In this document: in pieces, positions 4,326 to 59,865 of the stretch
Layout: every line of letters begins with the position of its first letter
How positions within the stretch are numbered: the stretch's first letter is position 1
From: Vulcanimicrobiota bacterium
Lineage (GTDB): Bacteria > Vulcanimicrobiota > Vulcanimicrobiia > Vulcanimicrobiales > Vulcanimicrobiaceae
Assembly: GCA_013036095.1 (NCBI GenBank)
Contig: JAAXCW010000003.1
Location: 62,001 to 126,000 of the forward strand
Length of the DNA: 64,000 nucleotides
Direction: 5' to 3'
The notes under the pieces: model-generated
What the model was told of the DNA's origin: nothing
Database searches by the model: none
Seen by the model: only the letters and a program-made list of their open reading frames with translations
Translations under genes and position numbers: made by a program

Positions 4326-4452
4326 CCCTCGTCATGCGCCCTATGGGCGCTGCTCGGGCGTCCTTCGACTCCGCATTTCGCTGAAGGCGAAATGCTCCGC
4401 TCAGGATGACACAATTGCAGGCGCGCCTCTCGGCGCGCCGCTCACCATGACA
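4326..4452 (-). repeat. dispersed two-hairpin repeat, copy 1 (composite)
   Basis: Read on the minus strand this contains TGTCATGGTGAGC plus a GGCGCGCC hairpin, then TGTCATCCTGAGC, an ATTTCGC/GCGAAAT hairpin, GTCGAAGGAC, CGAGCAGC, a GCGCCC/GGGCGC hairpin and a degenerate GACGAGGG end. This is the same order of blocks as in the other copies; here a partial element is stacked in front of a full one. It occupies most of the gap between the hypothetical gene and the histone-like gene. Confidence 0.85.
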
Positions 4453-4470
4453 AATGGGGCGTCCGGGAAT

Positions 4471-4500
4471 AAAAAAAGCGCGCCGGACGACGGCGCGCTA
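4471..4500 (-). terminator. Rho-independent terminator of the histone-like gene
   Basis: On the minus strand the arms GCGCGCCG and CGGCGCGC enclose a short loop and are followed directly by seven T residues. A second small hairpin with a TTCG loop (AAACGC/GCGTTT) lies between it and the stop codon. This is the clearest intrinsic terminator in the left half of the window. Confidence 0.9.
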
Positions 4501-4526
4501 AAGGAAAAACGCCGAAGCGTTTTTAG

Positions 4527-4697
4527 TTAGGCGGCCTTTTTCCGGCGGCGCCGGCGGGTCGTCTTTTTGCGAGCCGTTGTCTTGCGAGCGGCTTTGCGTG
4601 CACCTTTACGGCGTCCGCCCTTGCGCGCTGCCTTACGGCGCTTACGCGGAGCTGCTTTTTTTGCAGCTGCCTTTTTCCTTCTACGTTTGACTGCCAT
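4527..4697 (-). CDS. small histone-H1-like Lys/Arg-rich DNA-binding protein
   Basis: A 56-residue protein, MAVKRRRKKAAAKKAAP at the start and RRRRRKKAA at the end, made almost entirely of Lys, Arg, Ala, Thr and Gly with repeated (R/K)KAA(R/K)K blocks. Such compositions occur in bacterial histone-H1-like and Hc1-like nucleoid proteins, so non-specific DNA or RNA binding is the likely role (inference). AAAGGA lies about 15 bases before this ATG. A TTGTCA-N17-TATAAC promoter lies upstream and a strong terminator downstream, so it is a monocistronic and probably highly expressed gene. A longer overlapping frame starting 14 bases earlier is a shadow: it is Arg/Gln-rich and lacks the AAK periodicity. 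Confidence 0.85.
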   Translation of the reverse strand: MAVKRRRKKAAAKKAAPRKRRKAARKGGRRKGARKAARKTTARKKTTRRRRRKKAA

Positions 4698-4749
4698 TTA
4701 AGTTCAGTCATCCTTTCTCTGGCTAGGTAAGTAGCCAGGGGTGTTGCCT

Positions 4750-5562
4750 ATGTTATACAGTATTACGAGCGCCGTGACAAGTTTTTACGTTGACGGAGCC
4801 GAGCTCGATGTCGCGACCGATGGCGACGGCGACGCGATTGTTCTGATTCACGGCTTTCCGCTGACGCGCGAAATCTGGAACGCGCAGACTTCGGAGCTTG
4901 CGAAAACGCATCGCGTGATTCGTCCGGATCTGCGTGGCATGGGACGATCGAGCGCACCTGACGGACCGTACTTGATGGAAACGCTCGCGGGCGATCTGGC
5001 TGCGATCTTGGATGCGATGGCGATTGATCGCGCAGCGATCGTGGGTCATTCGCTCGGCGGATTCGTCGCATTGGCGTTCGCGCGCATGTATACGGAGCGT
5101 GTTTTGCGCTTAGCGCTGGTTTGTAGCCGCCTTGGTGCGGATTCGCCTGAAATAGCAGGCTTTCGGAACGATCTGGCAGATCGGCTCGAACGCGAGAATA
5201 GCATCGAACCGGCGGTCGAAAGTTACATTCCGAAGCTGTTTTCGGACGAATCGCTGCAAAAGAATTCCGGCGCCATCGAACGCGCGCGCGCGATCGCGCG
5301 ATCGAATTCTCCGCGCGGCGCAGCGGCGATGTTGCGGGGTATGGCGCAGCGGGTGGAATCCTACGACATCGCCGCGGATCTGGCGATGCCGGTGCTGATC
5401 GTCGCCGGCGTCGGCGACAAACTCGTGCCGCCCGCGGAAGCTGAAACAATGCGCGCCGCCTTTCCGGCGGCGCGGCCGGCGCTCATGAGAAGCAGCGGGC
5501 ACCTTCCGATGCTCGAGGAACCGGAGGCGCTGGCGGCCGAGCTGGTCGCGTTCGTTCGTTAG
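4750..5562 (+). CDS. alpha/beta-hydrolase
   Basis: A 270-residue alpha/beta-hydrolase fold enzyme. The oxyanion-hole motif HGFPLTREIW lies near residue 33, the nucleophile elbow GHSLGG near 100, an acid region around VGDKLVPP, and the catalytic His in SSGHLPMLEEP near the C-terminus. It resembles 3-oxoadipate enol-lactonase and haloperoxidase-type members, but the substrate is not determined. The ATG at 4750 has AGGGG 8 bases upstream. A GTG at 4774 fits the homologous region equally well and would remove eight residues. The gene is divergent from the histone-like gene. Confidence 0.87.
   Translation: MLYSITSAVTSFYVDGAELDVATDGDGDAIVLIHGFPLTREIWNAQTSELAKTHRVIRPDLRGMGRSSAPDGPYLMETLAGDLAAILDAMAIDRAAIVGHSLGGFVALAFARMYTERVLRLALVCSRLGADSPEIAGFRNDLADRLERENSIEPAVESYIPKLFSDESLQKNSGAIERARAIARSNSPRGAAAMLRGMAQRVESYDIAADLAMPVLIVAGVGDKLVPPAEAETMRAAFPAARPALMRSSGHLPMLEEPEALAAELVAFVR
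4752..4780 (-). promoter_or_regulatory. sigma70-type promoter of the histone-like gene
   Basis: On the minus strand TTGTCA (-35) is separated by exactly 17 bases from TATAAC (-10), about 55 bases before the histone-like start codon. It overlaps the first codons of the divergent hydrolase gene, so transcription of the two may interfere. Confidence 0.7.
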
Positions 5563-5753
5563 CCCCGGTAGCGGGTGATCGCGGCCGAGCTTGTGCGCCG
5601 CCGGAACAGATTCACAAGGAAGAGCACGCCGACGACGAGCGCTGCGATGATCAGCGCCGGCACGACCACGTGCACTACCAGGAACGAGACAACGAACAGC
5701 ACGACGAGCACGATGGCGACCAGGATCGTCAAGCGCATGAAAAGACTGAGCAT
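5559..5753 (-). CDS. small hydrophobic membrane protein
   Basis: A 64-residue protein with a long run of Leu/Val/Ile (residues about 6-50), enough for two membrane passes. It ends in a basic tail with an RRRTSSAA stretch. An internal ATG gives MRLTILVAIV as an alternative start. It converges with the hydrolase and shares 4 bases at the stop codons. No family is recognised; it may be a small inner-membrane protein. Confidence 0.55.
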   Translation of the reverse strand: MLSLFMRLTILVAIVLVVLFVVSFLVVHVVVPALIIAALVVGVLFLVNLFRRRTSSAAITRYRG

Positions 5754-5814
5754 GCCTCATACTACCGGGGAAGTGGCGGACGGGTTTCGCCCCGGCCGGA
5801 CCGAAGTTTCCTCT

Positions 5815-6567
5815 ATGAACCGACACCTTCATATAATCTGTGCGTTTGCTTTACTCTGCGGGCTTGCGAGCACCACTGCGGGCGCCCAGCAGAAGGCGAT
5901 GCGCCATTTGGCCTATACCTTTGATATCAGCATTACGTCGGATCTCACGGTGCATTCTTCGGGCATCGGCGAGGCCGGCGGCGGCACCGGCAGCGGCATG
6001 ACGCACTATCCGGGGAGCAACAGCGACAAGGGCACCATAACGGTCGACGTTATGGGCGTCCAGCCGGACACGGGATTGGTGGTCAGTGTCGCCGAGCAAG
6101 GCCGCGGCAATCGGACTGCGGCGCCGGCGACCTGCGTCGTCTACGGGATCGGCAGCGTCATCTGCGATCCGAACGCGAAGGTCAACGAAGAAGAGATGTC
6201 CCTCATGCGCGTGCTCGGACGCAATTTTGTGAACCCGTCGACCATCGACAGTAACCACCATTGGCAGAACATCGAGAGCGGCGCCGGCGGCAAGGAAATC
6301 AACGATTACACGATCTCAAGCGATAACCACGACGGCCTGCTCGGCATCGACTTCCAACGCGTCCTTACGGTTGAAGGAGCGGGCGGCTATCGTGCGGATA
6401 CGCACGGTTCGCTGGCCTACAATCAAAAGCTGAGCGTGCCGACGCAGGTTAAGGAAGACACGGTGACCCGTACTCACCCTGGGCAAGGCCAGGATAACCG
6501 CGTCGAGCAGCAGCTGACTCTGACCCTGACGACCGACTCGCTCGCGCAAGCCGTCACCACTCCGTAG
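5815..6567 (+). CDS. secreted protein of unknown function
   Basis: A 250-residue protein with a clear signal peptide (MNRHLHIICAFALLCGLAST, cleavage near TAGA-QQ). The mature part is rich in Gly, Thr and Asp and mostly predicted beta, with two Cys about 14 residues apart near the middle. I do not recognise the family. The frame is open upstream, but the signal peptide fixes the start at this ATG. It stands alone between the small membrane protein and the helicase gene. Confidence 0.75.
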   Translation: MNRHLHIICAFALLCGLASTTAGAQQKAMRHLAYTFDISITSDLTVHSSGIGEAGGGTGSGMTHYPGSNSDKGTITVDVMGVQPDTGLVVSVAEQGRGNRTAAPATCVVYGIGSVICDPNAKVNEEEMSLMRVLGRNFVNPSTIDSNHHWQNIESGAGGKEINDYTISSDNHDGLLGIDFQRVLTVEGAGGYRADTHGSLAYNQKLSVPTQVKEDTVTRTHPGQGQDNRVEQQLTLTLTTDSLAQAVTTP

Positions 6568-6605
6568 CAGAAAGCGGCGGCGCCGTCGAACAGGCGTTCG
6601 TACTA

Positions 6606-9200
6606 ATGGAGCCGCTTTTTGACGCCCTGCATCCTGACGTCGCGCGCTGGTGCCGCGATGTCTTAAAGGAAGCCACAGAACCCCAGCGCGCCGCCATTCC
6701 CTCCGGTCTCGAGCGCCGGAACGTTCTGGTCTCCTCGCCGACCGGCACCGGGAAAACGCTCGCAGCCTTCTTGCCGGTCATATCGGCACTTGCGTACCGG
6801 CGCGACGAGGACAGGCTCTTTCCGCGCACCTTTGCGCTCTATATCTCCCCCCTTCGCGCCCTCGGCTACGACGTCGAGCATAACGTTCGCGCGCCGCTGC
6901 GCGAGATGGGCCTGCTGGAGCGGCCGAATTCGCCGCGCGCGCGGCTCCGCCGGGGGCGCGTCCGCGAGACGCACGTCCGGACAGGCGTGCGCACGGGAGA
7001 TACGCCCAAGGACGAGCGGCGCTTGATGCTCTCCCGCCCTCCGCACATTTTGATGACGACGCCGGAGTCGCTCGCGGTGATGCTGGCTATGGAGTCGTAC
7101 CGCAAGACGCTGCGCACGGTCGAGACGGTCATCATCGACGAGGTGCACGCTCTGGCGACCAACAAGCGGGGCGCGCAGCTCGCGCTCTTGCTCGAATCGT
7201 TGGAAGAGTTGGCCGAATCGCCGTTCAACCGCATCGGCCTTTCTGCGACGATCAGCCCGCTCGATCGGGTCGCGAAATTTTTGGTGGGCACCGATCGCGA
7301 GTGCGAGATCGTCGACGCGCGCCGTCTGCGGTCCATCTCCATCGACGTGCTGGCTCCATTCCCCAACGCGATGGCGCCCCTCGCGACGGTCGCGCAGGCG
7401 GCGGCGCGCCTTACCCGGGAAGAACGCACGACGCTCGTCTTCACGAACGTGCGCAGCCAAGCGGAGCTTATCGCTCACGGCATGGCGCAGATCCTAGAGC
7501 CGGAAAGCGTCGAAGAAGTCAACGGCCAGACGCGCGAACGGCAGTACGATTCGCGCATCGGCGTGCATCACAGCGCGCTCGAGCGCAACGTGCGCCATCG
7601 CGTGGAAGCGGCGCTGCGCGCGGGCAAGCTGCGTACGGTCGTTTGCAGTTCGAGTTTAGAACTCGGCGTCGACATCGGATTCATCGATCGCGCGGTGGTC
7701 ATCGGCGGCGCCCGCGGCATGACGCCGACGCTCCAGCGCATCGGACGCGCGGGTCATCGTCCAGGCGCGGTGGCGCGCGGTACCGTGATCGCGCAAGATC
7801 GCGACGACATCGTAGAAGCCGCCGCAACAAAACGCTGCATTGCGGACGGCATTCTCGAAGAGGCCGCGATTCCGGAAGCGCCGCTGGACGTGCTGGCGCA
7901 GTGGCTGGTAGGCAGCGTCTGTTACGACCGGCGGCTTACGATCGACGATGCGCTGCGGATAGCACGGCGCGCCTCTCCGTTCGCGCAGCTCGAGCGCAGC
8001 GATCTCGTCGCGTGCGCGCGTTATCTCTCCGGCGGCGGCGTAGGCGAAGAGGAAGCGCACGTCCGGCGGCTGGGATTTGACGGGGAGGCGCTCTACGGAC
8101 TCGGCCGCGAAGTTTGCGCCGCTTTCTTCGAAAACGTCGGAACGATTCCGGACGAGCAGCACGTCTCAGTAACGCTCAAAGGCGCGCGCCATGCGATCGG
8201 CCGCGTCGAGGAAAGTTTCTTGAGCGAAATCCGGCAGGGCGACGTCTTTGTCCTGAACGGCCGCACGCTGCGCGTAAAAGAATTGACGAGCACGGGCATC
8301 ATCGTCGAACCGCACGCCGGCCGTCCGACCGTTCCGCAATGGAGTTCGCACTTGCGCGGCATCCCCACCGCGCTCGCGGCCGAAATCCATACCCTTCGCA
8401 ACGGTGTGGCAGACCTGCTACGCGGCGAGGGGAGCGCGCTCGAATACCTTCGCACCCGCTACGGGCTCGGAGGCTTGGAAGCGGGGCACGTGGTTCGTTA
8501 TATCGCCGAGCAGATTGCGCTCTCCGATGTGCCGGACGCCACACATCCGGTGATCGAAATCTACCGCGTCGATCGCAAGCAATGCGCGGTCTTTCATACC
8601 GGTGCGGGGCGGCGGATCAACGAAACGCTCGCGCGTGCAATTGCAACGCGCATATTTTGGCAGGTCCGCGCGAACGTGCAGCTCACTACCGACGACAACG
8701 GTTTTCTCCTAACGCTGCCGGCCGGCAAATCGATGCGCGATGAGTCATGGACCAAACTCTTGCACGCGCACGACTTCGAGCGCGATTTGCTTGCGGGACT
8801 GCGCAGCTCGCATTTGCTGCGCAATCATTTTCGCTACGTGGCAAATACCGGTCTTCTCGTACTGCGCCGCGCCGGCGGGAAGACGCTGCGGCGCCGGGCG
8901 CTCTTTTGGAACTCGCAGCGCATCTTTGAGCGCATCTTTGCAAGCGATCGCGATTTTCCGCTGCTGCGCGAAACGCTACGCACGGTAACGCGCGATCTGC
9001 TGGACGCGCCAGGTGCGCTCGCTTATCTGGAATCGATCGAGCATCCCATCCGGCTCTTTCATCCCAAAGCCGCTTCGCCGTTTACGTTCGGCATCATCAC
9101 CTCGAGCTTCGGCGACGCGGTGGTGCTGGACGATCGCTCAAGCATGGTCGAAGCCCTGCACCAACGCGTTCAGGAAGTGATGGAACGCCGTGCTTCGTGA
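6606..9200 (+). CDS. lhr: Lhr-type ATP-dependent helicase (ligase-associated DEXH-box family)
   Basis: An 864-residue superfamily 2 helicase. SPTGTGKT (motif I) lies near residue 44, followed by YISPLRAL (Ia), TTPESL, IIDEVHAL (II), GLSATISP (III), SSSLELGVDIG (V) and QRIGRAGHRPG (VI). After the two RecA domains come the winged-helix and long C-terminal regions of Lhr-core proteins. Length and the following PdeM gene place it in the ligase-associated DNA damage response group, where helicase, phosphoesterase, exonuclease and ATP-dependent ligase usually lie together. Here the exonuclease and a broken ligase are about 14 kb away. The last 11 bases overlap pdeM. Confidence 0.92.
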   Translation: MEPLFDALHPDVARWCRDVLKEATEPQRAAIPSGLERRNVLVSSPTGTGKTLAAFLPVISALAYRRDEDRLFPRTFALYISPLRALGYDVEHNVRAPLREMGLLERPNSPRARLRRGRVRETHVRTGVRTGDTPKDERRLMLSRPPHILMTTPESLAVMLAMESYRKTLRTVETVIIDEVHALATNKRGAQLALLLESLEELAESPFNRIGLSATISPLDRVAKFLVGTDRECEIVDARRLRSISIDVLAPFPNAMAPLATVAQAAARLTREERTTLVFTNVRSQAELIAHGMAQILEPESVEEVNGQTRERQYDSRIGVHHSALERNVRHRVEAALRAGKLRTVVCSSSLELGVDIGFIDRAVVIGGARGMTPTLQRIGRAGHRPGAVARGTVIAQDRDDIVEAAATKRCIADGILEEAAIPEAPLDVLAQWLVGSVCYDRRLTIDDALRIARRASPFAQLERSDLVACARYLSGGGVGEEEAHVRRLGFDGEALYGLGREVCAAFFENVGTIPDEQHVSVTLKGARHAIGRVEESFLSEIRQGDVFVLNGRTLRVKELTSTGIIVEPHAGRPTVPQWSSHLRGIPTALAAEIHTLRNGVADLLRGEGSALEYLRTRYGLGGLEAGHVVRYIAEQIALSDVPDATHPVIEIYRVDRKQCAVFHTGAGRRINETLARAIATRIFWQVRANVQLTTDDNGFLLTLPAGKSMRDESWTKLLHAHDFERDLLAGLRSSHLLRNHFRYVANTGLLVLRRAGGKTLRRRALFWNSQRIFERIFASDRDFPLLRETLRTVTRDLLDAPGALAYLESIEHPIRLFHPKAASPFTFGIITSSFGDAVVLDDRSSMVEALHQRVQEVMERRAS

Positions 9201-9999
9201 ATCCGCCGCGCGCAGGGCGCAGCTCGTCGACGGAATCGACGCCGTCGCGCCCGGACTGCTCTGGCTGCGCGAAACGCGGACGATCGTCGCGGCCGACGCC
9301 CACCTCGCCTACGAAGATGTCATCGGCGGCGCGCTGCCGACGTGGAGCACGACAGACGCTATCTCGGTGCTGCTGAAGGCGGCGGAAGAATTCGGAGCGC
9401 GAGAATTTCTTTTTCTCGGAGACATCATCCACGGCAGCCGGATGAGCGAAGGCGCCGCAAATGGCGTGCAAGCCGGGCTCGACCGGCTGCGCGCGCTCGC
9501 TACCGTAACGCTAGTTGCCGGCAATCACGAGGGCCGAACGCGCGGCGCGGACGTGCTCGGCGAGACGGTCGAATACGCCGAGCGCTCCGGCTGGCTTCTG
9601 ATCCACGGCGACAAACTACCGTGTCATCGTGAGCGGGCGCCATTAGGCGCCCCAGTCGAACCACGCCCGAGCTTCTCGAGGGCCCGCGTAATCATCGGTC
9701 ACCTACATCCGAGTATCCGGAGTAACGGAACCTCGGCGCCGGCATTTCTCGCCGGCGGCGGAGTTATTGTGGTGCCGGCGCTAACGCCGTATTCCGAGGG
9801 CCTGGATGTATGCGGCGAAAATTGCTTCGAAGCGCTGCAAGTTTTCGGTGTGCGAGCGCGCAACGAACTTCAGGTTGTCGCCGCCACTCACGAGCTCGTC
9901 TATCCACTCGGTTCGCTTTCGGGGCTGCGCCAGGAATTGCGCCGTCCTTCGCAGCCGCCACAGCATCGGTACCGCCGAAAGTTTTTGCGGCCGGACTGA
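9190..9999 (+). CDS. pdeM: ligase-associated metallophosphoesterase PdeM
   Basis: A 269-residue calcineurin-like phosphoesterase. Metal-binding motifs appear in order: DAHLAYED near residue 37, FLGDIIHG near 76, GNHEGRTRG near 114 and VIIGHLHPSI near 170. It starts inside the helicase gene (11-base overlap). Family members act with the Lhr-type helicase, exonuclease and ligase in DNA repair. Residues about 145-165 are encoded by a copy of the dispersed repeat that lies between GDKLP and the RVIIGH motif without breaking the frame. The C-terminus is followed within a few bases by another repeat copy. Confidence 0.87.
   Translation: MLRESAARRAQLVDGIDAVAPGLLWLRETRTIVAADAHLAYEDVIGGALPTWSTTDAISVLLKAAEEFGAREFLFLGDIIHGSRMSEGAANGVQAGLDRLRALATVTLVAGNHEGRTRGADVLGETVEYAERSGWLLIHGDKLPCHRERAPLGAPVEPRPSFSRARVIIGHLHPSIRSNGTSAPAFLAGGGVIVVPALTPYSEGLDVCGENCFEALQVFGVRARNELQVVAATHELVYPLGSLSGLRQELRRPSQPPQHRYRRKFLRPD
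9622..9683 (+). repeat. dispersed repeat, copy 2, inside pdeM
   Basis: The blocks are TGTCATCGTGAGC, a hairpin with arms GGGCGCC and GGCGCCC, GTCGAACCACGCCCGAGC, then CTCGAGGGC. The first block and hairpin match, nearly base for base, the outer part of the copy at 35.9 kb. It lies wholly within the coding sequence and is read as about 21 extra residues. Confidence 0.8.
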
Positions 10000-10001
10000 T
10001 C

Positions 10002-10088
10002 TCCTCGACATGCGCCCATTCTGGGCGCTGCTCGGGGTCCTTCGACACGCCTTCATCCTTATCGGATGAAGCGCGGCTCAGGATGACA
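10002..10088 (-). repeat. dispersed repeat, copy 3 (full-length type)
   Basis: On the minus strand: TGTCATCCTGAGC, a hairpin with arms CTTCATCC and GGATGAAG, GTCGAAGGACCCCGAGCAG, a hairpin with arms GCGCCCA and TGGGCGC, and GTCGAGGA. This is a complete example of the two-hairpin architecture. It fills the space between pdeM and the NUDIX gene, and its TCCTGA supplies the NUDIX stop codon. Confidence 0.9.
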
Positions 10089-10644: not shown

Positions 10645-10676
10645 GGACCGCGGCCGTCCCCGAACAAAGAGTAAGT

Positions 10677-12302: not shown

Positions 12303-12304
12303 AA

Positions 12305-15292: not shown

Positions 15293-15301
15293 ATAAGAAG
15301 A

Positions 15302-17564: not shown

Positions 17565-17565
17565 T

Positions 17566-18735: not shown

Positions 18736-18737
18736 AC

Positions 18738-32005: not shown

Positions 32006-32068
32006 TGTCATGGTGAGCCTGTCGAACCACCCCGAGCAGCGTGCCGTAGGCAGGCAAGTCGAGGGGGG
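32006..32068 (+). repeat. dispersed repeat, copy 4, between livK and livH
   Basis: The blocks are TGTCATGGTGAGC, TGTCGAACCACCCCGAGCAG, a small hairpin GTGCC/GGCA(G)GC and GTCGAGGGGGG. The first hairpin is absent in this copy. It fills almost the entire gap between the two genes. Confidence 0.88.
32061..32068 (+). promoter_or_regulatory. ribosome binding site of livH supplied by the repeat
   Basis: The G-rich end of the repeat (GAGGGGGG) lies 5 bases before the livH ATG and is the only Shine-Dalgarno-like sequence there. Confidence 0.65.
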
Positions 32069-35933: not shown

Positions 35934-36017
35934 CGGGCCTCGACTACGCTCGCCGTCCTTCGCCCTTCGGGAAACTCAGGATGACCTGGCGCCTAATGGC
36001 GCCCGCTCAGGATGACA
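35934..36017 (-). repeat. dispersed repeat, copy 6 (composite)
   Basis: On the minus strand: TGTCATCCTGAGC with a GGCGCC hairpin, a second GTCATCCTGAG with a CCCGAAGGG hairpin, then CGAAGGAC and GTCGAGGCCC. Two starts are stacked, as in copy 1. It separates two convergent genes. Confidence 0.85.
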
Positions 36018-37025: not shown

Positions 37026-38297
37026 ATGGTAAGTAAGACGATGTATGTGGCGGCAGCGATGCTTCTGGCTTTGCTGCTGGGCGGGTTTCCGTCTGCGGCT
37101 CGCGCAGGAGCCGCTCAAGTAGCGCAGGCATCTCCTGCACCTCCGCCCGCCTTCGGCACTCCGCCCTCGGGCGAAATTCCAATTCTTTACAATGACCACA
37201 CTGTCTACGCTAAGCCCGATGTTCTGAAACAAGGTCGCGTCCTTGCCGCCTTGGTGAAGAACGGTCAGATCTACGTGCCGCTGCGCAGCATGTTCGAACA
37301 GATGGGTGCCACGGTCTCGGCATCGGCCGACGGCAAAACGGTAACCGCCACGAAGAGCGGCGCAACCGTTTCGGTCACGCTCGATAAACCCGAAGTCGTC
37401 ATCAATGGCGAAACGCGGCCGCTCGACGTGCCTCCCATCCTTTATAAGGGCATCTTGCTCGTTCCGGTGCGCGTGATCTCCGAAGGCATGGGCGCCTACG
37501 TGCAATGGGTTCCCACAAGACGGCTGGTCGTCGTGCGTTACATTCCGCCGACGCCGCCGCCGACACCGGCGCCCACCGCTGCCCCAACGATCGCTCCTGT
37601 GCCGACACCGGTGCCGACCGAACCGCCCTATACGATGTTCGTTCAAGCCGCCGTCGGCCATCATATGAACTACAATGAGTTCTCGGCCGGTCAATACTGC
37701 CGCTCGCTCTTGGCAGCGGCTGCTATCGCATTTAGAAATTCGCCGTTTGCCGTCAAAGTCGATTACCGCTTGGATTCGTATGTCACCAGCGATAATCTGA
37801 CCGATCTCAACGGCAACCATTTCACGAAGTTCAGCACGATCGACGGCGGCTCGGCTTACACTCCCGTATTCATGGCGCGGCAAAGCAGCCTGGATGCGCG
37901 TTTGGAGTATAAAATCGCCGATCCGCGGATCTACATCGGCGCCGGCTACCTGCAAACCTCGACCAACTACGGCTATCCGAAGCTGACCGGGGTCGGCGTC
38001 GGAATCGAAAAACTTCCCGACCTTACCAAGGGGATCAGTTTCTTCGGCTCCGCGTTCTACTACCCGTCGGCAAGCGGCACGTACACGATCGCTAATGCGG
38101 CGAGCGCGAACAACGGCAAGTCTTATCGCCAGCAATTCGCGATCACGAAATACGATATCGGCCTCGCTCTCGTCTTAGAGCACTTCCCAGTCTATCTCTA
38201 TGGCGGGTTCAGCGCGGACCAGTATCAAGTGAAGCAAAACGCACCAATCGGTCAAACCCATAACGGTCCGTACATCGGGCTCGGAGTGAAGATCTAG
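37026..38297 (+). CDS. stalk-domain (copper amine oxidase N-like) protein with C-terminal beta-barrel-like region
   Basis: A 423-residue exported protein. It has a signal peptide (MYVAAAMLLALLLGGFPSAARA), then a copper-amine-oxidase-N/stalk domain (residues about 50-175: VKNGQIYVPLRSMFEQMGATVS and LVPVRVISEGMGAYVQW). A Pro/Thr linker (about 178-202) follows. The last 215 residues are alternating aromatic and small strands ending in YIGLGVKI, as in outer membrane or autotransporter-like barrels. It could anchor or bind the envelope surface. It is followed 1 base later by the ice-binding protein gene. Confidence 0.75.
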   Translation: MVSKTMYVAAAMLLALLLGGFPSAARAGAAQVAQASPAPPPAFGTPPSGEIPILYNDHTVYAKPDVLKQGRVLAALVKNGQIYVPLRSMFEQMGATVSASADGKTVTATKSGATVSVTLDKPEVVINGETRPLDVPPILYKGILLVPVRVISEGMGAYVQWVPTRRLVVVRYIPPTPPPTPAPTAAPTIAPVPTPVPTEPPYTMFVQAAVGHHMNYNEFSAGQYCRSLLAAAAIAFRNSPFAVKVDYRLDSYVTSDNLTDLNGNHFTKFSTIDGGSAYTPVFMARQSSLDARLEYKIADPRIYIGAGYLQTSTNYGYPKLTGVGVGIEKLPDLTKGISFFGSAFYYPSASGTYTIANAASANNGKSYRQQFAITKYDIGLALVLEHFPVYLYGGFSADQYQVKQNAPIGQTHNGPYIGLGVKI

Positions 38298-38298
38298 A

Positions 38299-39273
38299 AT
38301 GATGAACATGAAAAAAACTCCGCGCTTTCTACACGCTTTGCGCCTGGCTGCGCTCGTTATTCTGATCGCGCCCGCGGCGCTGGCCGCTTGCAGCGGCGGG
38401 AGCGGCGGATGCGGCAGCAATTGCACCGTGCCGGCTTTTAATGCGCCGGCAACGGGCGCGCCCGGCCCGGTTATCACGCCGACGCCGACGCCGACGCCGG
38501 TACCGACACCGACTCCGACCATTGCCCCATTGGTGGCGTGCAGCCAAGGCGTTGGCGGAAATAACATCGTATTGGGACCGGCGCTAGCGCCATTCGCAGT
38601 GCTGGCCGGCTCTACAATCACCAACGTCGGTAATACACTCGTGACATTTGGTCCCGGCGCGGTTACGGGCAGTACCAATGACGATCTCATGGGCGTCTCG
38701 CCGGGAAGCGCAGTCACGGGATTCTATCCGCCTGGAACCGACACGGACGGCCCGAACGCCATCTACGCTGCCGGCTTTAATACGAACACCGCGGTACCGC
38801 TGGCTGCCCAAAATGCCCTCACGACCGCCTATAACGCCGCCGCCGGAAAGCCGGCGACGAACACTGTTGCGGGGGACCTGGGCGGGCTAGTCCTGCCGGC
38901 GGGCGTCTACAAATCGACTTCGACGCTTGCGATTGCGTCTGGAAACCTCACGCTCGACGGCGGCGGCAACCCGCAAAGCGTCTTCATCTTCCAGATCGCA
39001 TCCGCGCTAACGACTGTTCTGAACGGGTCAGCCGGCGGCAACGTGATCCTGCAAAATGGCGCCAGCGCTTGCAATATCTATTGGCAGGTCGGCAGTTCAG
39101 CGACGCTCGGAGGCGCAACCTTCAGCGGGAATGTATTGGCGTTCTCGTCAATCACGATAAACGCCACGACGTTCAATGGCCGGGCACTAGCCGGTGGTGC
39201 TTCGTTGGGAACGGGCGCGGTTTCAATTCCCGTCATCGGTGGTTCGCGCATTACAAACCCCGGCGGCTCATAA
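38299..39273 (+). CDS. DUF3494 ice-binding-like lipoprotein
   Basis: A 324-residue protein with a lipoprotein-like signal (LVILIAPAALAACSGG) and a Pro/Thr repeat linker (TPTPTPTPVPTPTPT, residues about 58-75). The following DUF3494 domain shows LGPALAPFAVLAGSTITNVGN, GVSPGSAVTGFYPPG, GLVLPAGVYKSTSTL and IYWQVGSSATLGGATFSGNVLA. This is the ice-binding/antifreeze-like beta-solenoid fold, found in cold-adapted microbes and also as an adhesin. It follows the barrel protein directly, so both are probably surface proteins of one operon ending at the terminator near 39.3 kb. Confidence 0.88.
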   Translation: MMNMKKTPRFLHALRLAALVILIAPAALAACSGGSGGCGSNCTVPAFNAPATGAPGPVITPTPTPTPVPTPTPTIAPLVACSQGVGGNNIVLGPALAPFAVLAGSTITNVGNTLVTFGPGAVTGSTNDDLMGVSPGSAVTGFYPPGTDTDGPNAIYAAGFNTNTAVPLAAQNALTTAYNAAAGKPATNTVAGDLGGLVLPAGVYKSTSTLAIASGNLTLDGGGNPQSVFIFQIASALTTVLNGSAGGNVILQNGASACNIYWQVGSSATLGGATFSGNVLAFSSITINATTFNGRALAGGASLGTGAVSIPVIGGSRITNPGGS

Positions 39274-46133: not shown

Positions 46134-46134
46134 G

Positions 46135-47919
46135 CTAACGCGTGGAGAGCTCGAACGCGAACGTGCGGCCCGGCATCGGGAATCCGCTTACGGCTTCGTA
46201 ACGCGCGTTTCCGAAATTGTATGCGCGAAGCGTCAAGAGCACGTTCGGCGCCGCGCGCAGCGAGAGATAGGCGTCGGCGCGCGTAAATGCACCGGCGCCG
46301 TGCGGCCCGGCCGAGTGTACCGACGCGCCCGCTGCTTCCACGAGGCCTCCGCCAGCATAGTCGAGTCCGAGGTTCGCCGTAAAGACGGGATCGTCGGGAA
46401 GACGCGACTGCGTATCGAGATTCTGCGCGCGATAGAGATCCGTAATATTGAACGAAGCCGTAAAGCCGTGCGACGGCAGCGTCCTGGCGTCGAGCGTCAG
46501 GCCCTCGATCAGCGCATGCCCGATATTTTCCGGCGCGAATATGAAGTTGACCGGATCGATCAGCGTCGTAACGATCAAGTTGTTCGTGCGATCGCCGAAC
46601 CATCCAATCGAGACGCCGCCCAGCACCGCCGAATCGACCATCGTCAAGTCGGCGACTCTTGCGCGCTCGGGCTTGAGCGCCGGATTGCCAAAGAACGGAA
46701 AGTAGAGCTCGCTCGCGTTCGGCGCGCGGAACGCAGTCGCGACATTGCCCTTGAGTGCGGACGCATGTGAGAGCCGCAAGACAAATCCGGCCGAGGGCGA
46801 GAATTCGCCGCCGAGCGCACCGTCGCGCTCCCCACGCAATCCCGCGTAGGCATTTCCCCAGCGCGTCGTGAATTTTTGCTGTACGTAGGCAGCCGCTTGT
46901 GCCAGCGAGTTGGTCGAAAACAGACCGCCGGCGTCGCCGCGCACCGTTCCGCGTGCGAGGTCGATGCCGTAAAGCAGCTGTTCGTTCTCTCCGCTGACGA
47001 CATTACGCGCGTCAAAGTCGAGACGGCTTTCGGTATCGAGCGATTGCGCCGTCTGGAAACAGTTCGAATCGGTGACGGCGTTGCATTCGAAGGTGATCTG
47101 CTGGCGCGTTCCGCCCAGCTGGACCGTGAACTCCGCCTGCCGCGTCCGATGTGTGAGCGTTACATTGGCGTCCGCGTTGAGATCCGTTTGGCGCGATGTC
47201 GGCGAAGTGAATTCCAGCGGGCCCGGCGCTCCGCCGCGATCGCTCGAGATGCCGGCGCGCAGCACGGCGTCGAAAGAACCAACGCGTGTGCCGGCGTTGG
47301 CGTGCAATGCCGAGATCTGATAATCGCTGTCGGGACGTGCCGATCCATCCGTGAGTTTGAAGTCGTTGCGCGCCACGATTCGCGAGAATTGAACGCTCGG
47401 CGAGCGCAGTTCGAAAGACGTGTCGTCTAACGATCCGGCGCGAAGCGTCGCGCCCGTTGCGGCTTTGCGATTGGTGATGACGTTGACGATGCCGCCTATC
47501 GCTCCCGTCCCGTACAGTGTGGAGCCGCCGCCTTCAACGAGTTCGATGCGTTCGACGCCGGTGGTGGACATCGTGCCGAGCTCCACGGAATTCGCGAACG
47601 AGCCCGGCGCGGGCAGCCCGTCGACGAGCACCAGGACCTGCGCGCTGTTCGTACCGCGTACACCGTATTGCGCGCTGCTGCCGATCGGCCCGTAAGGAGA
47701 ATATTCGAAGGCTGGTAACCCTTCGAGCGCTTCGCCGACCGTGCGGTATCCGTGGCGCGCGATCTCGGCGCGCGTGACGATATAGGTCGTGCGCGCGGCA
47801 TTGTTCAGCGTTTCGTCGGTGCGGTCGCTTGTGAAGACGTGCGCGATCTCCGGTAACGGCGATGGGGATGGAGACGCCGCGGCGGCGCCGATCGTGATCA
47901 GAAATAGAAGCGGAAACAT
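46135..47919 (-). CDS. btuB: TonB-dependent outer membrane receptor (BtuB-type)
   Basis: A 594-residue protein with a signal peptide (MFPLLFLITIGAAAASPSP). The plug domain has TVGEALEGLPAFEY, QYGVRGTNSAQVLVLVDGLPAPG and GVERIELVEGGGSTLYGTGAIGGIVNVIT. A 22-strand barrel follows, with the FRAPNASELYFPFFGNPALKPE motif near residue 400. It ends FAFELSTR rather than an aromatic residue. It carries B12 across the outer membrane with TonB energy. It is the first gene after the cobalamin riboswitch and is directly followed by btuC. Confidence 0.92.
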   Translation of the reverse strand: MFPLLFLITIGAAAASPSPSPLPEIAHVFTSDRTDETLNNAARTTYIVTRAEIARHGYRTVGEALEGLPAFEYSPYGPIGSSAQYGVRGTNSAQVLVLVDGLPAPGSFANSVELGTMSTTGVERIELVEGGGSTLYGTGAIGGIVNVITNRKAATGATLRAGSLDDTSFELRSPSVQFSRIVARNDFKLTDGSARPDSDYQISALHANAGTRVGSFDAVLRAGISSDRGGAPGPLEFTSPTSRQTDLNADANVTLTHRTRQAEFTVQLGGTRQQITFECNAVTDSNCFQTAQSLDTESRLDFDARNVVSGENEQLLYGIDLARGTVRGDAGGLFSTNSLAQAAAYVQQKFTTRWGNAYAGLRGERDGALGGEFSPSAGFVLRLSHASALKGNVATAFRAPNASELYFPFFGNPALKPERARVADLTMVDSAVLGGVSIGWFGDRTNNLIVTTLIDPVNFIFAPENIGHALIEGLTLDARTLPSHGFTASFNITDLYRAQNLDTQSRLPDDPVFTANLGLDYAGGGLVEAAGASVHSAGPHGAGAFTRADAYLSLRAAPNVLLTLRAYNFGNARYEAVSGFPMPGRTFAFELSTR

Positions 47920-47953
47920 TGCAACCCTTTCCCTTACGCGAGGCGGTTGTGTG

Positions 47954-48096
47954 ATGCGTTTGCGCTGGTATCCTGACTTGCGGATCCTAGCCTAGTGCCC
48001 GTGCCTTCCCCCAATAAGGAGTGACATCGGGCGGCTCCCCGCCTACAGTGGCGCGACCGTGCCGGCATTCGACCGGCTTCCCGCGCGCAAACGTTA
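47954..48096 (-). promoter_or_regulatory. cobalamin riboswitch upstream of btuB
   Basis: On the minus strand the P1 arms GTTTGCGC and GCGCAAAC enclose GGGAAGCCGG-TCGAATGCCGGC, the GCCACTGT element, a GGCGGGGAGCCGCC stem, GGGGGAAGGC and the B12 box AGTCAGGATACC. This is a textbook cobalamin (AdoCbl-type) riboswitch, with all core blocks in order. It ends about 35 bases before the btuB start. When B12 is present it is expected to reduce btuBCD expression. Confidence 0.95.
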
Positions 48097-48135
48097 TGAC
48101 TCTGATACAGCGGTGCAGGCTAGCCTTCCTGGTCC

Positions 48136-52203: not shown

Positions 52204-52259
52204 GCAGCTATTCTTTCTTCAAGGGGTTGGGAAAGGCTTGTGAAAACTGTCACAAGCCG

Positions 52260-53083: not shown

Positions 53084-53091
53084 CGTAGAGC

Positions 53092-54884: not shown

Positions 54885-54904
54885 GTACGGCGCTCACCCT
54901 AATG

Positions 54905-54978
54905 TGTCATGGTGACGTGTGTCATCCTGAGCTTGTCGAAGGACCCCGAGCAGCGCGCAAAGCGCGCAAGTCGAGGGG
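54905..54978 (+). repeat. dispersed repeat, copy 7, between nuoD and nuoE
   Basis: A partial TGTCATGGTGA is followed by the full TGTCATCCTGAGC, TTGTCGAAGGACCCCGAGCA, a hairpin GCGCGC/GCGCGC, and GTCGAGGGG. It fills the gap between the two genes. Confidence 0.9.
54973..54978 (+). promoter_or_regulatory. ribosome binding site of nuoE supplied by the repeat
   Basis: GAGGGG at the end of the repeat lies 3 bases before the nuoE ATG (its GAGG core is 5 bases away). It is the only Shine-Dalgarno-like sequence there, as at livH. Confidence 0.65.
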
Positions 54979-54981
54979 CGC

Positions 54982-55722: not shown

Positions 55723-56981
55723 TGCCGGTCGTCAAAGTGTTAACCGAAGGGATCGGCGAGGCCGATCTTCGCGACATTAAAGTCTATCGCGATCGCGGCG
55801 GATACAAACAGCTCAAACGCGCGTTCACCGAAATGAAACCGGCCGACGTGCAGGTGATGAGCGATAAATCCGGCCTGCGCGGACGCGGAGGCGCCGGCTT
55901 TCCGACGGGAAAGAAGTGGTCTTTTTTGCCAGCGGGCGTGCGGCCGCGCTACTTGGTCTGCAATTGCGACGAGGCCGAGCCCGGCACGTTCAAAGACCGC
56001 ATGCTGCTCGAAGAGACGCCGCATCAGGTGATCGAAGGTATTTTGCTCGGCGCGTACGCCATCGAGTCGCACCATGCGTTCATTTATATACGCGGCGAAT
56101 TCAAACGCGGCTACGAGATCTTCATGGAAGCGCTCGCGCAAGCGCGCAAAGCCGGATTCGTCGGAAAGAATCTTTTCGGCAGCGGCTTCGATCTCGAACT
56201 GACCGTGCATCGCGGTGCCGGCGCCTATATCTGCGGCGAAGAGACCGCGCTGCTCAACTCGCTCGAAGGGAAACGCGGAGAGCCGCGCCTCAAGCCGCCG
56301 TTTCCGGCTCTGCAGGGCCTCTACAGCAAGCCGACGGTCGTCAACAACGTCGAGACGCTGGCTTATCTCATTCCGATCCTCGAGCGCGGTCCGGAATGGT
56401 TTTCGTCGGCCGGCACCGAGCGCAGCAAAGGATATAAGGTCGTCTCGATCAGCGGCCACGTGCAGAAGCCGGGCAACTACGAAGTTCCGCTGGGCACGCC
56501 CGTGCGCGAACTCATTGAAATCGCCGGCGGTCTACGGCCCGGGCGCAAACTGATGGCGATTCAACCCGGCGGCGGTTCGTCGGCGTGCATCTTCGAAGAA
56601 CAGCTCGATCTGCCATACGATTATGAATCGCTGCAGAAGGCCGGCACGATGCTGGGCTCGGGCGCGATCGTCGTTATGGACGACACCACCGACTTTGTGC
56701 GCGCGGCTTTCAACCTCGTGCGGTTCTTCGCGCACGAATCATGCGGTCAATGCACGCCGTGCCGCGAGGGCGGACACTGGCTCGAACGCGTGCTCCATCG
56801 TTTCCTCGAAAACCGCGGACTCAAATCCGACATCGAAATGCTCGCACGTGTGAGCCACGAGATCACCGGCATCAATCTCTGTCCGCTGGGGGATTCGATA
56901 GAACCGTTCTTGGCCTCAGTCCTCAAGCGCTTTCCCGAGCAGTTTGAAGCTCGCGTCGCGCGCGAGACGGTGCGCGCATGA
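55722..56981 (+). CDS. nuoF: NADH-quinone oxidoreductase subunit F
   Basis: A 419-residue NADH-binding subunit. It has the FMN/NADH loop GLRGRGGAGFPTGKKW, NCDEAEPGTFKDR, GAGAYICGEETALLNSLEG and the N3 4Fe-4S Cys in ESCGQCTPCREGG near residue 345, with a fourth Cys in NLCPLG. It takes electrons from NADH. The ATG overlaps the nuoE stop by one base; the gene ends four bases into the next lipoprotein gene. Confidence 0.96.
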   Translation: MPVVKVLTEGIGEADLRDIKVYRDRGGYKQLKRAFTEMKPADVQVMSDKSGLRGRGGAGFPTGKKWSFLPAGVRPRYLVCNCDEAEPGTFKDRMLLEETPHQVIEGILLGAYAIESHHAFIYIRGEFKRGYEIFMEALAQARKAGFVGKNLFGSGFDLELTVHRGAGAYICGEETALLNSLEGKRGEPRLKPPFPALQGLYSKPTVVNNVETLAYLIPILERGPEWFSSAGTERSKGYKVVSISGHVQKPGNYEVPLGTPVRELIEIAGGLRPGRKLMAIQPGGGSSACIFEEQLDLPYDYESLQKAGTMLGSGAIVVMDDTTDFVRAAFNLVRFFAHESCGQCTPCREGGHWLERVLHRFLENRGLKSDIEMLARVSHEITGINLCPLGDSIEPFLASVLKRFPEQFEARVARETVRA

Positions 56982-57484
56982 AGCTAAGCGCGTCACTTCT
57001 CCTTACGACAGTCGCGTTGAGCGGTTGCGTTCTTCCGAGTCAAGCCGTAACCGGAGCACCTTCGGGGCCATCGCAACAACAAGCAATTGCGGCCCTCCGG
57101 AAGCTCCATTTCATGGCAGGCAGCTGGAACTGTGTCGTTCGCGGTGGTCCTGGGAACGGCTATGCTTCCAAATTGAGCTATTCATTTTCGCCGGATGGGT
57201 TCTGGATGGTCGAGTCTGAAAAAGGTGTTCGCAAAAGCGCATCGGGATGGAGCACGCAGCTGTGGGGTTACGACGTCACCCAACCGGGGTTTAGTGCATA
57301 TCAATTCACGCCCGCTGGTGTTTTTACGAAATCTGTTCGCGGCTGGGAGAATGGCAACTTCGTCAGCACACGTGACGACAATCACGCCATCGTTTCGATT
57401 CGCAAGCGCTCGAACCGCGCATTCGATTGGGTCATTCAATCTGCAGACAAATCATCGACCGTCATCGAGGCTTGCACACGGTAA
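56978..57484 (+). CDS. lipoprotein of unknown function inside the nuo operon
   Basis: A 168-residue lipoprotein (MKLSASLLLTTVALSGC, lipobox LSGC) with a beta-rich mature domain (LHFMAGSWNCVV, FSPDGFWMVESEKG, GFSAYQFTPAGVF, ending IEACTR). It is unrelated to complex I. The ATG overlaps the nuoF stop (ATGA) and nuoG overlaps its own stop, so it is fully embedded in the operon. It resembles the layout of the 19.9 kb secreted protein. Base composition looks a little lower in GC than the nuo genes around it. Confidence 0.8.
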   Translation: MKLSASLLLTTVALSGCVLPSQAVTGAPSGPSQQQAIAALRKLHFMAGSWNCVVRGGPGNGYASKLSYSFSPDGFWMVESEKGVRKSASGWSTQLWGYDVTQPGFSAYQFTPAGVFTKSVRGWENGNFVSTRDDNHAIVSIRKRSNRAFDWVIQSADKSSTVIEACTR

Positions 57485-59865
57485 TGGCCGATCAGCAGCT
57501 CGTTACCGTTACCATCGACGGCACGCAAGTGCAGGTTCCTAAAGGAACGTGGCTCGTTGAAGCGGCGAAGCAAATCAAACGCGAGATTCCCGTCTATTGC
57601 TATCACCGCAAGATGGGGCCCGCGGGGCTGTGCCGCATTTGCCTGGTCGAGATCGAAGGCATGCCGAAGTTGCAGATCGCCTGCAACACCGCGGCGACCG
57701 ACGGCATGGTCGTGCATACACAGAGCGAGAAAGCGTCCGACGGCCGCCGCGCCGTGCTCGAACTGTATCTCGTGAATCATCCGCTGGATTGTCCCATTTG
57801 CGACAAGGGTGGCGAGTGCGATCTGCAAGATTACGCAATGGCGTACGGCCAGGGGTATTCGCGCAGCGTCGATCCCAAAGTCAGCAAACCGAAAGCGGTA
57901 GACTTAGGTCCGACGATCGTGCTCGACGAGGAACGCTGCGTCGTCTGCCAACGCTGCGTGCGCTTCGACGATATGATCGTCGGCGAACGCGAACTGGTCT
58001 TAAAAGATCGGGGCGTGCGCAACATCATCGCGACCGCAAACGGCGAACCGTACCGGCACAACTACACCGGTAATGTAACGGAGCTCTGCCCGGTCGGTGC
58101 GCTGACGTCGAAGACGTACCGGTTCAAGTCGCGCCCGTGGGACCTGCGGCGCACAGCGACGACCTGCACGCAGTGCCCGGTCGGCTGCCAGATGCATGTC
58201 GACGTGCGGGTCGGCGTCGTGCAGCGGACGATGTCGGTTGAAAACGATGACGCCATCAGCGACGGCTGGCTCTGCGACCGCGGACGCTACAACGTCGGTT
58301 TTTACGACGACCCTGCACGCGTTACGCAGCCGATGTACAAACGCGACGGCCGCTGGGTGCAAATAGCCTGGGACGACGCGCTCGATCTTTGGGCAACGGC
58401 AATACGCGAAGCTTGCGCGATCAATCCGGCGTCGGTTGGCGTAGTCGGCGGTGGACGCCTCACAAACGAAGAAGCGTTCTTGCTGCAGCATCTCTTTCGT
58501 GCAAAAGGCGTTGCCAATCTCGATTGGCGCGCCGGGCGTCAGCGCCAGGCTTCGCCGGGGCGCAGCGGCGGAACGCTCCTCGAACTGGAAAGCTGCGATG
58601 CGATTCTGCTGATCGGCGAATCGCCCGCCGAGCGCGCGCCGATCATGGATTTGCGTGTACGCAAAGCTGCGCTTCAAAAGGGCGCCAAACTCATTCGCAT
58701 CGCGTCGGCCGAGCGCCCTTACCCGGCGCCGATTCCTTCGACCGATGTAACCACCGTCGCAGAGGCGATCAAAAGTCTACCGAAAGAACCCAAGCGCATT
58801 GCGGTTGTGTGGGACGGCAGCGATGGCAAACTGGCGGCTTCACTGCTCGAAAAACTTCCCGCCGGAGCGGAAATCCTGACGTACATCACCGGCGAGCAGC
58901 CGAATGCGCGCGGAGCTGAAGCGATGGGCATGTTGCCGTTCGCAAAATCTGGTTACGCCAAAGCCGAGGCCGGACTGGATGCTGCGCAAATGTTCGCCGC
59001 GGCGCGCTCTGGAAAGCTTGCCGTTCTTTCAATCTTCGGCGCCAATCCTGCGCTGCACCGCGCGGATTTTTCGCGCGCATCATTTACGGTGGTCAGCGAT
59101 CTTTTCATGACGGAAACTGCGCAGCTTGCCGATTTGGTGCTGCCGGCAAAGGGACCGTTCGAAAAAACCGGCACGACCACGAACATGGCCGGCGACCTGT
59201 TGCCGGTCAATGCGGCCCACTCGCTCGAGACGCCGGCCGACGCTTTGAGCGATCTCGAGATGATCGTTGCGCTTGCCGAAAAGCTCGGCGTTGAGCTGCC
59301 GGTCGCGGAAGAAGTCGACGCGGCGGTTCTTCGCCACTTAGCGACGGCGCCGGAAGATTTCACCTTGGGCGACGCGCGCTTCGGCGACAGTGTCATGGTG
59401 AGCTTGTCGAACCACCCCGAGAAGCGCCGCAAGGCGCATGCCGAGGGGCCCACGTTTACAGCGATCGTCCAAACGCGCATCTTCGCCGGCGGTGGAACCG
59501 TCGCGCACGACGCGCGGATAGCGGAACTTTGCCCGCTTCCGGCAGCAGCGCTTTCACCTGAAGATGCGGCGGAGCTGGGCGTCAGCACGGGGGATTACGT
59601 CGATCTTGCGGCCCTCGCTTCGTCCTTCGACGACGAGTTCGCAAATGCGAACTCTACTCAGGATGACAATACTAGTGCCGCCGAGCGCGCGGTGTTGCAC
59701 GACTTGTTGGTTGAAGTGCGCAACGGAATGCCGCGTGGAACGGTCGCGCTGATTGGCGGGTTGCCAGACAGTACCGCGAACGGCTTTGACGGCGCGAGCG
59801 TCAGCGTAACGAACATCCGCCGCGCTCCGCAGGAAATTTCCGAACCAATCGGTGCGCCGGCGTGA
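57484..59865 (+). CDS. nuoG: NADH-quinone oxidoreductase subunit G
   Basis: A 793-residue iron-sulfur subunit. The N-terminal ferredoxin-like part has CYHRKMGPAGLCRICLVEIEG, HPLDCPICDKGGECDLQDYA and a four-Cys 4Fe-4S region ERCVVCQRCVRFDD, then ELCPVGALTSK. A molybdopterin-oxidoreductase-fold region (about 215-600) follows. The C-terminal region contains two dispersed-repeat copies, read as about 20 residues near 636-656 and about 12 residues near 717-728. Both keep the frame. The start ATG shares one base with the lipoprotein stop. Confidence 0.94.
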   Translation: MADQQLVTVTIDGTQVQVPKGTWLVEAAKQIKREIPVYCYHRKMGPAGLCRICLVEIEGMPKLQIACNTAATDGMVVHTQSEKASDGRRAVLELYLVNHPLDCPICDKGGECDLQDYAMAYGQGYSRSVDPKVSKPKAVDLGPTIVLDEERCVVCQRCVRFDDMIVGERELVLKDRGVRNIIATANGEPYRHNYTGNVTELCPVGALTSKTYRFKSRPWDLRRTATTCTQCPVGCQMHVDVRVGVVQRTMSVENDDAISDGWLCDRGRYNVGFYDDPARVTQPMYKRDGRWVQIAWDDALDLWATAIREACAINPASVGVVGGGRLTNEEAFLLQHLFRAKGVANLDWRAGRQRQASPGRSGGTLLELESCDAILLIGESPAERAPIMDLRVRKAALQKGAKLIRIASAERPYPAPIPSTDVTTVAEAIKSLPKEPKRIAVVWDGSDGKLAASLLEKLPAGAEILTYITGEQPNARGAEAMGMLPFAKSGYAKAEAGLDAAQMFAAARSGKLAVLSIFGANPALHRADFSRASFTVVSDLFMTETAQLADLVLPAKGPFEKTGTTTNMAGDLLPVNAAHSLETPADALSDLEMIVALAEKLGVELPVAEEVDAAVLRHLATAPEDFTLGDARFGDSVMVSLSNHPEKRRKAHAEGPTFTAIVQTRIFAGGGTVAHDARIAELCPLPAAALSPEDAAELGVSTGDYVDLAALASSFDDEFANANSTQDDNTSAAERAVLHDLLVEVRNGMPRGTVALIGGLPDSTANGFDGASVSVTNIRRAPQEISEPIGAPA
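59391..59450 (+). repeat. dispersed repeat, copy 8, inside nuoG
   Basis: The blocks are TGTCATGGTGAGC, TTGTCGAACCACCCCGAGAA, a hairpin GCGCC/GGCGC and CCGAGGGG. It is the same sense and type as copy 4 and is read as VMVSLSNHPEKRRKAHAEG. Confidence 0.88.
59633..59668 (-). repeat. dispersed repeat, copy 9, inside nuoG
   Basis: On the minus strand: TGTCATCCTGAG, a hairpin GAGTTCGCA/TGCGAACTC and GTCGAAGGA. It is in the opposite sense to copy 8, 180 bases away in the same gene. Confidence 0.85.

Follow-up and report, generated by a model that had tools for sequence, protein, structure and literature searches.

A dispersed hairpin repeat of a Candidatus Eremiobacterota genome as a probable mobile unit inserting next to TGTC

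Nine sites in a 64,000-nt stretch of DNA (the window; G000:C3:62001-126000, part of the 2.58 Mb genome G000, in 19 contigs, of a Candidatus Eremiobacterota soil bacterium) carry related short hairpin repeats, and they raise the question of whether such a repeat moves and by what rule it inserts. The original prediction described them as a dispersed two-hairpin family with conserved blocks and co-varying arms that is probably mobilised in trans. We propose that the repeats are probably non-autonomous mobile hairpin units of the repetitive extragenic palindromic (REP) kind, which insert precisely 3' of the tetranucleotide TGTC. Mobility is supported by the presence or absence of copies at orthologous sites together with exact insertions of one copy into another.

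Both hairpins of a copy follow one plan, consisting of an arm, GAG(C/T), a loop or a variable inner hairpin, GTCGA and the complementary arm. The two predicted hairpins are therefore present, but as two copies of one modular unit and not as two kinds of hairpin. Unit 1 reads TGTC-AT-SS-TGAG...TCGAA-SS-(A/G)C, where S is C or G, and unit 2 comes after it in the same orientation with arms such as CCCC/GGGG, GGCC/GGCC, GCCC/GGGC and others; CGC then follows in 60 of 115 cases, a unit 2 being counted only when three or four of its four arm bases match. The AT after the tag was part of our search definition; its T is paired (T-A or T-G) and its A lies opposite C. Copies end in AC or GC, and the next two bases are CC (75), GG (45), GA (42), GC (24) or others (14) among 200 copies. 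Loops of 4-5 nt fit 90 simple copies, and of the 115 copies with longer loops 107 form a perfect inner stem 4 bp or more in length. Unit 2 seldom occurs without unit 1: 76 of 152 other-armed hairpins directly follow a unit-1 tail, the remaining 76 being largely single background matches and a CCCT-armed third family. A third related unit reads CCTGTC or CCTGCC, then CTGAGC...GTCGAAGGG (G000:C1:268695, C1:69758 and C3:32993), and sits within main-family loops by a junction that, read by eye, seems similar to that of the main family.

The insertion rule was read from copies nested inside other copies. We scanned the junctions of 200 unit-1 copies with complementary arms in 1.75 Mb of sequence, requiring half of a host copy. 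Seven of the eight hits lay at offset 0, and the eighth, at offset 27, resembled a double nest; a relaxed scan added the window copy at 35962-35982, located at G000:C3:97982 in the genome, to the seven, giving a total of eight nested copies, and thirteen shifted controls gave none. In all eight the insert interrupts its host precisely at (T)GTC^GA, and neither loss nor duplication of bases is seen; GTCGA is restored across the insert and the host arms are complementary, the junction being ambiguous by one base (TGT^CGA). The host tag was TGTC in seven cases and GGTC in one, that of the window. The inserted unit measured 21 nt, and 37-39 nt where it contained an inner hairpin. In three of the eight cases the host still has an inner hairpin of its own, indicating that insertion is not mere replacement of the loop. 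Including the nested copies, TGTC stood before 174 of 184 unit-1 copies and CGTC before 6, while GA followed 41 of the 75 copies lacking unit 2, and the tag thus acts like a target. The sequence TTGTCGA is found in 54 of 80 simple copies and CTGTCGA in 23, so that most simple copies are themselves targets.

Copies are present or absent by genome and are not fixed at all orthologous sites. We found such differences at lhr, a metallophosphoesterase gene, nuoG, the nuoD-nuoE boundary and several sites in contig C1. The closest relatives of the window NuoG are Candidatus Eremiobacterota metagenome genomes, with best segments 82-88% identical, and nuoG carries two sites. Site A is occupied in five of six genus genomes, namely the window genome, L031, L032, L033 and, by position, G002, with either the GG or the CC class, and its unit 1 is missing in L043 (the labels L031, L032, L033 and L043 denote genomes G005, G006, G001 and G004 and no additional genomes). 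At site B the window has one unit with a single hairpin, L031 a GG composite, L043 a CC composite whose second unit is nearly the same as that of L031, G002 a further composite and L032 a remnant; in L033 the site is empty. Orthologous nuoG copies switch class on both arms. The window copy at 32006 is absent in G004, the element being present in G006 and G002, and the nuoD-nuoE copy at 54920 is absent in G001, where the genes abut. In the metallophosphoesterase gene the spacer measures 24 nt in seven outgroup sequences and in G001, and 75 nt in the window, a net gain of 51 nt; it is 21 nt in G006, 30 nt in G005 (unit 2 only) and 24 nt in G004, which we read as degraded. The Lhr-type helicase gene (DEAD_assoc, WH_Lhr) has a copy in four of six genus genomes (G001, G003, G004 and G005) and none in the window genome or G006. 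In G005 (L199 / L178, contig C94) the helicase open reading frame (ORF) is broken at the element by a stop and two Ns.

The G000 bin contains two versions, 82.6% identical, of one region (C1:1-82000 and C2:229000-307000) and has an estimated contamination of 6.6%, so that it probably mixes two species. This duplicate region supplied further presence/absence pairs. The copy at G000:C1:13776 differs from its C2 ortholog by exactly 21 nt, that is, the unit minus TGTC. It lies in an open frame of the other strand, reading ASHN-VLRQTQDDI-PLHP against ASHN-GK-PLHP, a net gain of seven residues in frame. Other copies within genes encode peptides such as CHPELVEG in the G004 helicase and VMVSLSNHPE in NuoG. 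Such encoded peptides are probably frequent in databases. We also considered a tail derived from the target, since two empty alleles seemed to bear the 3' tail of the element before insertion; outgroups lack that tail, and the tails are therefore read as deletion scars.

The pairing of the arms was kept while their sequence varied. Counts of co-variation and orientation were taken on examined stretches of the genomes. The SS arms of unit 1 were complementary in 187 of 194 copies from the G000 and G006 stretches, compared to a mean of 110 and a maximum of 131 after shuffling, which bears out the predicted co-variation of the CC and GG classes. For unit 2 the arms were perfect in 100 of 115 copies, preselected for three or four of four matching bases (shuffled mean 27, maximum 41). 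Compensating changes were likewise seen as described: two gap-free alignments showed changes on both sides in 8 of 12 and 4 of 12 pairs, a level reached by none of 500 shuffles, and structures slid along the same alignments scored far lower. These alignments were of hand-chosen distinct 43-mers (17 and 10 sequences) and are illustrative, not a sample. The position of T-GAG opposite CGA-A between the unit arms and the inner stem would allow two G.A pairs. A shuffle of the inner arms (104 of 104 observed) was circular, the copies having been preselected for a perfect stem, and we relied on the alignments instead. Folding energy was dropped as structural evidence because it was insignificant for the 21-nt unit (-1.1 kcal/mol, z -0.15).

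Copies are numerous beyond the window. The two-block pattern GTCATSSTGAGN{0,60}TCGAASSAC, with overlapping heads each counted, matched 142 times in the genome itself, and the reversed-pattern control gave no match. A narrower pattern, with N up to 30, matched in 25 of 60 genomes, its own included. All seven genomes of the genus, own genome included, had between 41 and 118 matches; 17 of the 30 other genomes of the family and 1 of 14 in the next family of the class were also positive, and the 4 genomes of the sister family and the 5 from elsewhere in the phylum gave none. A further 26 genomes, from other phyla and found by way of their NuoG loci, included 5 with matches; Granulicella rosea (27) and an alphaproteobacterial bin (17) had many. 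With 25 of 60 genomes positive and clustered in the genus and family, the repeat family is patchy and lineage-amplified, and neither a scarcity of copies in the genome nor uniform vertical descent describes it. In the open-access literature we found no published description of the repeat among the papers listed, judged by title and the start of the abstract.

The mobile unit would be 5'-AT-SS-TGAG(C/T)-loop-GTCGAA-SS-(A/G)C-3', with S as C or G and the two SS complementary, and would measure 21 nt with a short loop or, in nested cases, 37-39 nt with an inner hairpin. It would insert 3' of TGTC, at (T)GTC^GA in the nested cases, without duplication or loss, and nesting and stacking are possible because a simple copy usually holds an internal TGTC^GA. 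Since pairing is kept while sequence varies, it is probably a paired strand and not a fixed arm sequence that is recognised or maintained. By analogy with IS200/IS605 and REP elements, insertion may occur as single-stranded DNA, perhaps during replication, through a recombinase that would cut 3' of TGTC and that is no detectable Y1 transposase. Copies would then erode or be deleted, leaving a 3' tail at two sites. A stronger version, in which the 21-nt hairpin is a self-nesting precise unit moved by a single-strand recombinase distinct from both Y1 and reverse transcriptase, and TGTC is the target and not part of the element, we put forward tentatively and would sooner doubt than assert. To our knowledge, few DNA elements that insert precisely would be as small as such a 21-nt hairpin. 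If true, a self-nesting unit would explain why CGTC/TGTC REPs are reported without associated transposase genes. From the nested copies comes an insertion rule at base resolution (TGTC^GA, 21-nt unit, no duplication), which any genome with such repeats can be used to check, and this junction rule turns the search for an enzyme into a defined assay. Copies within genes add peptides to core proteins such as NuoG while the frame stays open.

Orientation was examined with the heads within stacks each counted singly. Most long contigs have heads running largely one way; the counts for the two directions in G000 were 57:5 in C1, 42:0 in C2, 21:0 in C12, 4:14 in C5 and 17:7 in C3, and in G006 they were 2:38 in C8, 0:15 in C7 and 15:13 in C6; ORFs lie on both strands (0.44 plus in C1 and 0.40 plus in C2, greedy ORF calls). 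Where the absolute GC skew was at least 0.03, copies lay on the negative-skew strand by 44:3 in G000 (p 2.5e-10) and 26:5 in G006 (p 1.9e-4), and where it was below 0.015 orientation was mixed (23:16 in G000, 11:12 in G006). A general replication-strand rule seemed to hold in C1, C2 and G006 but was rejected, as it fails in G002 and is reversed in C5. Coupling of insertion to replication is plausible at most.

Several results weigh against a precisely inserting mobile unit, among them the outcome of the enzyme search. No transposase family matched any of the 54 window ORFs scanned with Pfam, in agreement with the original prediction, but the REP-type or IS200/IS605-like transposase that was expected to act in trans from the same genome did not appear. 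Y1_Tnp (PF01797), whose profile was positive in E. coli and Caulobacter controls, exceeded the cut-off in 15 of 60 genomes, including 2 of 37 of the family (G042 and G048); at E up to 0.1 none of the 7 genus genomes matched it, and none of the 12 repeat-rich genomes, defined by 20 copies or more, did so either. RVT_1 occurred in 4 of 60 genomes and Y2_Tnp in 2 of 60, both in 0 of 12 repeat-rich genomes, the Y2 model being silent in 14 of 14 control genomes. The absence of an enzyme is not absolute, because three of the 12 repeat-rich drafts are under 90% complete (G003 56, G008 82 and G049 84). A serine resolvase (PF00239) was rejected as a candidate; it occurs in 26 of 60 genomes and 7 of 12 repeat-rich ones and is absent from G003, G011, G016, G049 and G051.

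The remaining points on this side concern the junctions, the stem and the strand. In four of the eight nested copies the host has the form CCCCGAGCATGTC/GAGGGG, and these four may be one composite that spread, which would leave about five distinct host contexts, and the nested scans need a recognisable host half, so that less precise insertions would escape them. Aligned blocks of congeners are 72-88% identical, too distant for most junctions in unique DNA to be read to the base. The outer stem is predicted to be thermodynamically weak, and in the smaller alignment further pair types were not significant (42 of 500 shuffles as high). The orientation of contig C5 opposes its weak skew (4:14 at -0.017), as does that of G006 C3 (1:7 at -0.006), G002 has no orientation bias (28:37), and G000 and G006 do not provide independent tests, their strongly biased regions being orthologous. 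Should GC skew indicate the leading strand, TGTC would lie on the nascent lagging strand and not on the lagging template, where IS200/IS605 elements insert.

Among known systems the closest kind is the CGTC/TGTC-tagged REPs, which have been defined without a dedicated transposase and include RPE-4/RPE-6 and dRS3 (Di Nocera, De Gregorio and Rocco 2013; PMC3733652, in the passages considered here); those passages contain no insertion rule. Our repeats share with them the NGTC tag, a high copy number, intragenic copies and the lack of an associated transposase. The tagged REPs have a stem of 8-9 bp with complementary AT in its first two positions and a loop of 4-5 nt; simple copies of our repeats come near this in the AT after the tag, in about 8 stem pairs, of which two would be G.A, and in a 5-nt loop. 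They differ in their composite two-unit copies of one orientation, in variable inner hairpins and in nesting at TGTC^GA; the 3' end is AC or GC instead of a full AT pair with an unpaired 3-nt tail, which is mostly CCA, and the phylum is outside the five listed in the same passages. Moreover, 115 of 194 copies show a head-to-tail arrangement when unit 2 is taken as a REP unit, whereas among the tagged REPs head-to-head dimers predominate and head-to-tail ones are negligible. Paired copies of opposite orientation also occur among our repeats; tail-to-tail pairs with heads about 120-145 bp apart are found at G000:C3:22985/23122, C1:337762/337889, C3:133336/133481 and C1:345028/345150. In-frame palindromic inserts within ORFs are also a feature of the Rickettsia palindromic elements, which belong to another lineage.

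IS200/IS605 elements insert without target duplication. The repeats resemble them in a fixed tetranucleotide-adjacent insertion and in the eight nested copies without duplication, and, in the parts of the sources considered, in subterminal hairpins; they differ in lacking a transposase gene, in having a single hairpin where IS200/IS605 elements have two ends, and in a length of 21-39 nt. According to PMC6006769, IS200/IS605 elements insert beside a target tetranucleotide, on the template of the lagging strand. The GTAG REPs moved by REP-associated tyrosine transposases (RAYT/TnpAREP), as presented in parts of PMC8266576 and PMC6006769, likewise have a tetranucleotide at the hairpin foot, non-Watson-Crick positions and a high copy number, and TnpAREP cleaves at CT near the GTAG foot (PMC8266576, same parts). 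Unlike them, our repeats have a TGTC/CGTC foot and no Y1 match in genome or genus. The part of PMC5896051 considered concerns Coxiella miniature inverted-repeat transposable elements and has no bearing here.

The repeats could instead be relics of a classical RAYT/REP system, TGTC REPs having once been moved in trans by a Y1 HUH transposase since lost from the genus. Tag and hairpin, tetranucleotide-adjacent insertion and high copy number all fit REP biology, many copies are eroded and Y1 genes occur elsewhere in the phylum. We nevertheless regard such a loss as unlikely, since Y1 is absent from all 12 repeat-rich genomes yet occurs in 10 of the 14 class-f3 genomes, just one of these 14 carrying any copies, and arms, loops and inner hairpins differ among congeners at the same sites, which suggests turnover after any loss. 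Less probable still is passive spread through replication and repair, by template switching, gene conversion or hairpin slippage without a dedicated recombinase. Truncated-head tandem stacks such as the 33-bp array at G000:C1:60050 and the switching of arm class on both sides in orthologous copies would suit it, and perfect inner stems would be compatible with quasipalindrome correction, but eight nested copies are inserted at the same site exactly and without loss, which error-prone repair would hardly produce. After insertion, the repair route may still account for arm-class switching and stacks. The array itself (G000:C1:60050-60160) consists of truncated heads of about 33 bp ahead of one complete copy.

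That selection keeps the copies in place as conserved regulatory elements of RNA or DNA (terminators, transcript 3' ends or protein binding sites) is highly improbable in our judgement. Stems co-vary, and 29 of 72 intergenic loci in C1, C2 and C3 lie between convergent ORFs (larger ORFs), as such a role might predict; presence and type, however, differ at orthologous sites, copies within ORFs are mostly antisense in C1 and C2 (17 opposite, 3 same) but not in C3 (1 opposite, 2 same), orientation in C1 and C2 tracks region and not gene strand, and no Rfam family matched the repeats at gathering score. An artefact of assembly or binning is hardly credible: the contamination and the two versions of one region noted above are what could suggest it, whereas all seven genus genomes searched and 17 of the 30 other genomes of the family contain these repeats, and the copies lie on long contigs whose flanking genes are open. 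A probable mobile unit of the REP kind remains our preferred reading of the repeats.

In the window itself all nine predicted sites are real, with heads at 4452, 4411, 9622, 10088, 32006, 36017, 54920, 59391 and 59668. A nested head at 35986 goes with the 36017 site and the broken head at 54905 with the 54920 site, and copies are stacked as described, for example 4412..4452 on 4322..4411. The nine sites share blocks, but these are looser than described. With up to two mismatches GTCATCCTGAGC gave 13 matches in the window compared to 4.98 expected, and exact CCCGAGCAG gave 6 compared to 0.67, both with 0 of 100 shuffles as high; exact GTCGAGGGG gave 3 compared to 0.47 (1 of 100 shuffles as high), and GTCGAAGGAC with one mismatch was at chance level (7 matches, 32 of 100 shuffles as high). 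Exact matches fell inside the nine sites in 4 of 6 cases for CCCGAGCAG and 2 of 3 for GTCGAGGGG.

Table. Repeat copies and their host gene nuoG in the window (positions numbered from the first base of the window)
Feature	Position	Strand
Composite copy: unit 1 (CC class, inner hairpin) and unit 2 (GCCC/GGGC arms, inner hairpin)	4322..4411	-
Truncated GG-class head and hairpin, stacked upstream of the 4322..4411 copy	4412..4452	-
Composite copy, in frame within metallophosphoesterase ORF 9190-9999	9622..9683	+
Composite copy: unit 1 of CC class with inner hairpin, unit 2 with CCCC 5' arm	10001..10088	-
Composite copy: GG-class simple unit 1 and CCCC/GGGG unit 2	32006..32066	+
Host copy interrupted by nested insertion	35936..36017	-
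21-nt unit between GTC and GA of the host; host arms rejoin exactly	35962..35982	-
Broken GG-class head	54905..54916	+
Composite copy between nuoD and nuoE	54920..54981	+
Composite copy, in frame within nuoG (site A)	59391..59449	+
Unit 1 with inner hairpin within nuoG (site B)	59622..59668	-
nuoG ORF, 812 aa, frame open despite two copies	57427..59865	+

The 32006..32066 copy separates a periplasmic binding protein gene from a BPD_transp_2 permease gene. Elsewhere in the window, a cobalamin riboswitch (47946-48119, minus strand) lies immediately upstream of a TonB-dependent receptor ORF (46135-47919, minus strand), and at 37026-39273 a protein with a copper amine oxidase N-terminal domain adjoins an ice-binding-like (PF11999) protein.

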